From assembly GCA_030427255.1 (NCBI GenBank), contig JAUHWY010000006.1:1-64000 (forward strand): a stretch of 64,000 nt of DNA. Direction: 5' to 3'. Positions 57,461-58,505 of the stretch are shown piece after piece. A program made the translations under genes and the position numbers. Below the pieces are notes generated by a model, which saw only the letters and a list, made by a program, of their open reading frames with translations, did no database searches and was not told where the DNA came from. The DNA comes from Bacteroidia bacterium. Its GTDB lineage: Bacteria; Bacteroidota; Bacteroidia; CAIKAF01. The first letter of the stretch is position 1; every line of letters starts with the position of its first letter.

Positions 57461-57501
57461 AAAAATAAAAAGCCCTGATACGCATAAGAGGACCAGGGCT
57501 T
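57461..57501 (-). terminator. Intrinsic terminator on the minus strand
   Basis: AAGCCCTG at 57470-57477 and CAGGGCTT at 57494-57501 form an 8-bp stem with a 16-base loop. On the minus strand the stem is followed by TTTTTATTTTT, as in an intrinsic terminator. It would stop transcripts arriving from the REP/transposase side before they read into alaS. Confidence 0.55.
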
Positions 57502-57554
57502 CAATTTTAAAAATCAACGCATCAATGCGGCGCTGCTTTTTGTGCGGGTATTAT

Positions 57555-57641
57555 GAGACCATTGACGCGTTGCTATTCTGGCGGAGATCCTGTCCTGACG
57601 CTTCAGCAGGGCGCAGGAATTTGTAACGGATCAAAAATCTC
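57555..57641. repeat. REP/MITE-like element R1 with 19-bp terminal inverted repeats
   Basis: The ends GAGACCATTGACGCGTTGC (57555-57573) and GTAACGGATCAAAAATCTC (57623-57641) are inverted repeats that follow the same pattern as those of R2 at 61759-61929. The first 46 bases align with R2 at about nine positions in ten (shared TGCTATTCTGGCGG). A half copy, CAACGCATCAATG, lies just left at 57515-57527. The element is 220 bases before the transposase gene. Confidence 0.7.
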
Positions 57642-57860
57642 CATCAAAAGGCAAATAACTAAACGTTTATAATCGTTTATCAAACGCTTATGCGCCATAA
57701 AAACATCTCTAAAGTAGTAAATTACCACGGTTTCCTTTTTACCGGAATGGCTTAATTCAAAGGCGAAAAAACCAATATGGACAAATTTCAAGGGCCTTCA
57801 AATAAAATCTGAAAGCCTACGACAAATAAAACCACAAAATCCATCTTTAATTTAAACACG

Positions 57861-58505
57861 ATGCACATGCAACGTTTCAAAAACAAATACCGCATTCCCT
57901 CAAACCGAGCACCATTTTGGGATTATGGGTGGAAGGCCATGTATTTTATTACCATTTGTACCCAAAACCGCGCGCATTGGTTTGGAGAAATTACGAAAGG
58001 GGTTATGTATTTGTCTGAAATTGGACAAATCGCCCAAAATGAATGGTTAAAAACATTTGAAATACGACCCGATATGAATTTATGGATGGGTGAATATGTG
58101 GTAATGCCCAATCATTTTCATGCCATAATTGGGATAGGGGAAAATCAATTCAATAGGAAACGGGGCGCGCAACGCGGTAGAGACGCAATGCATTGCGTCT
58201 CTACAACCAACGCAAATGCGTTGACCACAATCAACGCAAATGCGTTGACCACAACCAACGCAAATGCCAAAACACATGCGCAAAAAACAAAAAACCTATT
58301 TGGCCCCCAATCCAAAAATTTGGGATCTATAATTCGTGGTTTTAAAATCGGTGTAAAGGTATCTGCCCAACAAATCCATTCCGATTTTGCGTGGCAATCG
58401 AGGTATCACGACCACATCATTCGAAATGAACGGGTATTTCTTCGAATCACGCAATACATAAAAAATAACCCCGCCCATTGGAAGAAAGATACATTCTACA
58501 GATAG
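57861..58505 (+). CDS. REP-associated tyrosine transposase (RAYT, TnpA_REP)
   Basis: This 214-residue Y1 transposase of the IS200/IS605-like family has the HUH motif HFH at 85-87 in VMPNHFHAII. The candidate catalytic tyrosine is in ITQYIKNNP (Y199). The blocks YFITICTQNRAHWFG and FAWQSRYHDHIIRNE are typical of Bacteroidota RAYTs. Between them, residues about 101-140 are a low-complexity insert (GRDAMHCVSTTNANALTTINANAL...) encoded by a palindrome and a tandem repeat, absent from the core fold. No IS-like ends flank the gene, so it is a single-copy domesticated-style transposase that may mobilise the nearby REP elements. Alternative ATG at 57867. Confidence 0.88.
   Translation: MHMQRFKNKYRIPSNRAPFWDYGWKAMYFITICTQNRAHWFGEITKGVMYLSEIGQIAQNEWLKTFEIRPDMNLWMGEYVVMPNHFHAIIGIGENQFNRKRGAQRGRDAMHCVSTTNANALTTINANALTTTNANAKTHAQKTKNLFGPQSKNLGSIIRGFKIGVKVSAQQIHSDFAWQSRYHDHIIRNERVFLRITQYIKNNPAHWKKDTFYR
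58177..58204. repeat. Perfect 28-bp palindrome inside the transposase gene
   Basis: GTAGAGACGCAATG followed by CATTGCGTCTCTAC reads the same on both strands. It is in frame within the RAYT gene and encodes GRDAMHCVST. Sequences of this GAGACGCAATGC type are common REP units in Bacteroidota and cyanobacteria. Confidence 0.85.
58203..58268. repeat. 24-bp tandem repeat, 2.75 copies, inside the transposase gene
   Basis: Units start at 58203, 58227 and 58251 and differ by a single base (ACAACC/ACAATC, then CAACGCAAATGCG). Each unit contains CAACGCA-AA-TGCGTTG, a small hairpin. The unit length keeps the frame and yields the peptide repeat TTNANAL. The core equals that of the outer elements R1 and R2. 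Confidence 0.85.

Follow-up and report, generated by a model that had tools for sequence, protein, structure and literature searches.

A gene of the window (the 64,000-nucleotide stretch of Bacteroidia DNA analysed here) very probably encodes a subclass 2.4 RAYT into whose tolerant loop a REP was inserted as DNA, an event that has recurred among Bacteroidota. Judged by its motifs, family match and predicted fold, the ORF is an intact RAYT/TnpAREP of the subclass 2.4 (group 4) type with a Y1-transposase fold, and a putative REP-binding and REP-cleaving enzyme. The protein matched NCBIfam family NF047646 (REP_Tyr_transpos) with an E-value of 2.3e-15 and 56.7 bits, below the curated cut-off of 80, and this family was matched by 45 of the 45 proteins of alignment A4. 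No family was found for the window protein in a Pfam search, and a phmmer hit on Atg17 (E = 0.001) was discarded as low complexity. Within the HuH motif, NHFH (residues 84-87) fits the subclass 2.4 pattern NH[IFV]H, and YIKNNP fits the YIxNNP motif given for this subclass in PMC6006769; 10 residues lie between YIKNNP and the protein end, in keeping with the lack of a conserved domain after the Tyr motif that characterises subclass 2.4. Translation may start at the Met of 57867, which corresponds to the start of many homologues. A second, distant RAYT-like protein with a long C-terminal ERPDERPNERPDESR-type repeat is encoded elsewhere in the window's genome, G000 (L002, G000:C37:62734-63045).

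Table 1. Features of the RAYT gene and its in-gene repeats, in positions of the window.
Feature	Position	Strand	Remarks
RAYT/TnpAREP gene, subclass 2.4 type	57861..58505	+	214 aa ORF
HuH motif MPNHFH, residues 82-87	58104..58121	+	M, P, H and H columns invariant in alignments A1 and A4
Variable loop, predicted disordered, about residues 98-148	58152..58304	+	AlphaFold2 pLDDT and hypervariability in 106 homologues
Perfect 28-bp double-foot GTAG REP	58177..58204	.	Inverted repeat I1; read as GRDAMHCVST, GTAG in phase 1
24-bp tandem repeat, 2.7 copies	58203..58267	+	TRF score 123; encodes TTNANAL-type units
WQ motif, residues 178-179	58392..58397	+	Invariant in alignment A4
Catalytic Tyr motif YIKNNP, residues 199-204	58455..58472	+	Y199 and I200 invariant in alignment A4

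For an AlphaFold2 model that combined the window protein with 44 homologues (mean pLDDT 81), the top PDB matches in Foldseek were ISDra2 TnpA (2xm3_A, E = 1.7e-5) and REP-bound TnpAREP (4er8_A, E = 3.2e-5). The hypervariable insertion of subclass 2.4, located between the strand that follows HuH and the helix behind it, is present in both the alignment and the model, in which pLDDT is 50-64 across the loop versus 90-98 in the core, and the predicted disordered stretch contains both the palindrome and the tandem repeat. The first-pass annotation had placed the insert between the HuH motif and the catalytic Tyr, where variable loops occur, and this placement agrees with the model and with the hypervariability of the region among homologues, the palindrome encoding about residues 106-115.

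The palindrome itself, also described in the first-pass annotation, is present beyond chance expectation: when up to 3 mismatches are allowed, its 20-bp core has an expected count of 0.01 in 64 kb and was observed once. Its full sequence is GTAGAGACGCAATGCATTGCGTCTCTAC, also written GTAGAGACGCAATG/CATTGCGTCTCTAC; it opens with GTAG and closes with CTAC on a perfect stem, as in double-foot elements (5' GT[AG]G, 3' C[TC]AC, long stem), and its DNA fold has a z-score of -7.2. A weak symR match that Rfam placed on the hairpins (27.3 bits against a gathering score of 61) was discarded as chance pairing of a strong hairpin. A multiple-of-three spacing had been claimed for both the palindrome and the tandem repeat, which does not hold, since 28 bp is not divisible by three: the frame is kept by the 24-bp unit alone, and by the palindrome only jointly with adjoining bases. 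Genome-wide copies were counted by pattern searches. In G000, the exact 28-mer occurs once, one further perfect double-foot element is found at C42:54047, and a broader pattern, GTAGNGACGC-N6-10-GCGTC, has 25 matches on both strands, the window's own included, against 0 in the reversed control; the stretches inspected were mostly outside long ORFs. With a single exact copy and otherwise related GTAG-GACGC palindromes, no donor copy was seen. No REP-type palindrome beyond the internal one was found within 500 bp of the gene, which does not exclude subclass 2.4, as PMC6006769 places a REP within 1 kb of the large majority, but not all, of the genes of this subclass. A congener of the window's organism (G004) carries head-to-tail arrays of the GTAG REP GTAGCGACGCATCATCATGCGTC with a 33-bp period, open in several frames, at L199:2309-2661 (G004:C12:372808-373160; 11 copies) and L200:1326-1546 (G004:C13:366825-367045; 7 copies).

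The nature of the insert was examined in homologues, whose loop elements were sampled as GTRG-N20-CYAC strings, i.e. without selecting for palindromy. All 45 such strings were palindromes with at most 2 mismatches in 14. The first base of the foot fell in codon phase 0 in 24 cases and in phase 1 in 21, and never in phase 2, the phase in which GTAG reads as a TAG stop. Phase 0 gives the peptide VETxxxxASL and phase 1 RDAxxxVST, and five 28-mers occur in identical form in genes that read them in different phases. Across 30 distinct elements, 99.2% of the stem cells are paired and 7 of 12 stem pairs have changed on both sides, both far above shuffles and slid controls; some of the variation may have arisen because one REP took the place of another, and not by mutation of a resident element. 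A broken RAYT in genome G088 (L147:1246-1814, G088:C60) represents the outcome predicted by random-phase insertion followed by selection: the gene is split by a phase-2 REP, whose GTAG supplies the TAG that ends the first half, and the C-terminal half lies behind this premature stop in another frame. Together, the two phases, the identical 28-mers in both and the covarying stems argue for repeated insertion of DNA and against an ancestral peptide. On this comparative sequence evidence, the in-frame GTAG REP is a DNA insertion in the RAYT variable loop, one of the possibilities raised in the first-pass annotation. That annotation had named, as one finding that would count against it, an insert shared by unrelated genera as an ancestral domain. 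Inserts do occur in many genera, but they are read in two phases, their centres differ and identical 28-mers appear in both phases, so that this objection fails. The recurrent peptides RDAMHCVST and VETxxxxASL resemble a conserved motif, as would be expected of an ancestral protein segment that is palindromic through codon usage, but they are two readings of one palindrome; given also the identical 28-mers, the covarying stems and the same element outside genes, such a segment is extremely improbable and, by the use of identical elements in two phases, refuted.

The extent of the phenomenon was assessed in 106 non-redundant RAYT genes with both motifs, some of them close kin or from fragmented MAGs; they were gathered through class-level genome searches and from a set of 80 loci of named genomes. 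Of these homologues, 62 have a hairpin scoring at least 10 in the loop, 7 have one in the N-core and none has one in the C-core, and 78 of the 106 loops beat all 40 dinucleotide shuffles. Double-foot palindromes reached 2.2 per kb in the loop, compared with 0.22 elsewhere in the gene, 0.14 in the 500-bp flanks and 0.009 farther away, i.e. a loop density about 250 times that of distant DNA and about 15 times that of the non-coding 500-bp flanks; reversed-sequence controls gave counts of 0 in the loop, 0 in the rest of the gene, 2 in the flanks and 0 farther away. In 8 pairs from 5 loci, the loop REP and a flanking REP (within 500 bp) of the same locus agree in 11.1 of 12 central bases, a value reached in 1 of 2000 shuffles; REPs of different loci agree in 4.9. 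A tree of the homologues gave estimates of 30 gains and 11 phase changes, which are rough because many of its branches are weakly supported. A second in-protein position for REPs lies upstream of helix A, behind the FG motif that follows strand 2; it is used instead of the main loop in a short-loop clade (L018/L019, L023, L026 and L077), whereas L052, L073 and L142 have a REP near this site plus one in the main loop. A description of this second site was not found in the passages of PMC6006769 consulted. In one RAYT (L010, G001:C5:48461-49132), the loop has four REP copies 57 bp apart and is thus a REP-derived peptide repeat, and an additional REP at the 3' end of the gene is read as GRDALFCVSRR.

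The tandem repeat behind the palindrome has a different character. Both the repeat and its hairpin core, CAACGCA-AA-TGCGTTG, were located as the first-pass annotation had described them, the core at 58208-58223 and 58232-58247; the copies match at 95%, and this is the sole tandem repeat reported in the window. The view of the same annotation that the repeat, too, is REP sequence was not upheld, as no copy of the core was found outside the gene in G000 or five congeners, save in the G004 orthologue, where the repeat is diverged and decaying. As the core has no further copies in these six genomes of the genus, the 24-bp repeat is read, from sequence, as probably a local tandem duplication by slippage and not a REP. 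Replication slippage could then be thought to have produced the whole insert, palindrome included, as low-complexity sequence, since the repeat differs between G000 and G004 and lacks copies elsewhere, and the loops of homologues often contain tandem repeats at the peptide level. Slippage is indeed the best reading for the 24-bp repeat, but it is refuted for the palindrome, which belongs to a family of fixed 28-bp length and fixed feet found across genera and outside genes; as an account of the entire insert it is very improbable.

The orthologue in G004 (L009) has 88% protein identity to the window protein, an identical palindrome and the same M23-type peptidase gene downstream. Between the two orthologues, 25 codon differences are non-synonymous and 13 synonymous, a weak constraint that might point to a decaying pseudogene collecting debris, but the frame is open, all catalytic motifs are kept in both species and synteny to the same peptidase gene is retained, so that a pseudogene is improbable. 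Upstream of the RAYT gene, a block at window positions 57600-57860 is conserved (82%) in G004 only and contains a small antisense ORF (57603-57791) that is still recognisable there. Between the divergent alaS and RAYT genes, a strong hairpin is present at 57470-57501 (z = -3.6); another candidate at 57515-57573 was no stronger than shuffles (z = -1.1) and was set aside.

Whether the in-gene REP is maintained by selection was considered separately. It could be a cis element by which the RAYT binds its own DNA or mRNA and limits its expression, or a portable REP seed travelling with the gene. In favour of such a role are the enrichment of loop REPs over even the non-coding flanks, the REPs carried by a second surface loop in relatives, especially in the short-loop clade, and the strong mRNA hairpin (z = -8.2). 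A REP-like hairpin was also found within the gene or up to 300 bp away in 87 of 100 genes, and external REP-like hairpins accompany 22 of the 35 genes without an internal one versus 24 of the 65 with one (Fisher p = 0.02, kinship uncorrected). A stricter definition of inside and outside, however, gave p = 0.15, again uncorrected for kinship, and since neither test corrects for kinship, compensation between internal and external REPs stays a lead. Moreover, many intact homologues have no loop REP, and an unusual conservation of the palindrome between G000 and G004 was rejected, the identical 83-bp run having a p of about 0.09. The sequence data on self-regulation through the in-gene REP are at most suggestive, and no account of RAYT autoregulation was found in the literature searched; retention of the REP by selection as a cis element or seed is, on balance, unlikely. 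Similarly doubtful is the wider proposal that the subclass 2.4 ORF is a REPtron whose cognate REP is kept by selection in either of two tolerant loops at the protein surface, one following HuH and the other joining strand 2 to helix A. If it were true, the substrate of the enzyme would always accompany the gene and might feed back on its expression.

The favoured account is that DNA insertion placed a 28-bp double-foot GTAG REP in a disordered loop at the protein surface, which links the HuH-bearing strand to the following helix. The inserted REP would have survived because the loop is presumably dispensable and the GTAG fell outside the phase that reads as TAG, and the REP would have no dedicated function there. 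Such insertions recur across Bacteroidota RAYTs, and the 24-bp repeat behind the REP would have arisen by local tandem duplication. By analogy with the family, the insertion was probably made by the RAYT itself or came about through recombination with a cognate REP, since one is often found next to the gene. The gene of a mobile-DNA enzyme is here a recurrent landing site for the palindromes that the enzyme is thought to move. The identical 28-mers read in two phases cleanly demonstrate that new protein sequence is created by DNA insertion, and with the about 45 genes that have clearly delimited elements one could readily ask whether RAYTs move REPs at all and whether in-gene REPs regulate their host genes.

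Several known systems bear on these observations. GTAG-tagged REPs were described by the De Gregorio/Di Nocera group in 2013 as 20-40 bp stem-loops linked to RAYT genes, some of them inside ORFs, whose GTAG often provides the TAG stop of a neighbouring ORF (PMC3733652). The window element shares the GTAG foot, but the intragenic REPs of that study lie mainly in DNA repair and other genes, whereas the window REP lies in the transposase itself and, unlike them, is perfectly palindromic and has a foot at either end. Rickettsial palindromic elements (RPE), cited in the same paper, are likewise palindromic DNA in frame in coding genes, but belong to other sequence families and are not tied to RAYTs. 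The E. coli TnpAREP (4er8), which binds a GTAG REP hairpin, has the HuH-Tyr fold in common with the window protein but is of subclass 2.2, with single-foot REPs and no loop insertion. The closest counterpart is subclass 2.4 (RAYT group 4), which Quentin et al. 2018 (PMC6006769) describe as abundant among Bacteroidetes and Cyanobacteria. According to that paper, REPs occur inside tnpAREP genes of this subclass, generally between HuH and Tyr and without disturbing the frame, and include the 'double-foot' type, which has GT[AG]G at one end and C[TC]AC at the other. The in-gene REP of the window is a further instance of this phenomenon, which is not new, as in-frame REP insertions were reported there as a hallmark of subclass 2.4; what is added here is how common in-gene REPs are and the evidence that they are inserted DNA and not peptide. 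With its NH[IFV]H, WQ and YIxNNP motifs, its variable insertion between HuH and Tyr and its in-gene double-foot GTAG...CTAC REP, the window gene differs in nothing essential from subclass 2.4 as there described, and is set apart by having no close flanking REP and by the extra 24-bp tandem repeat.
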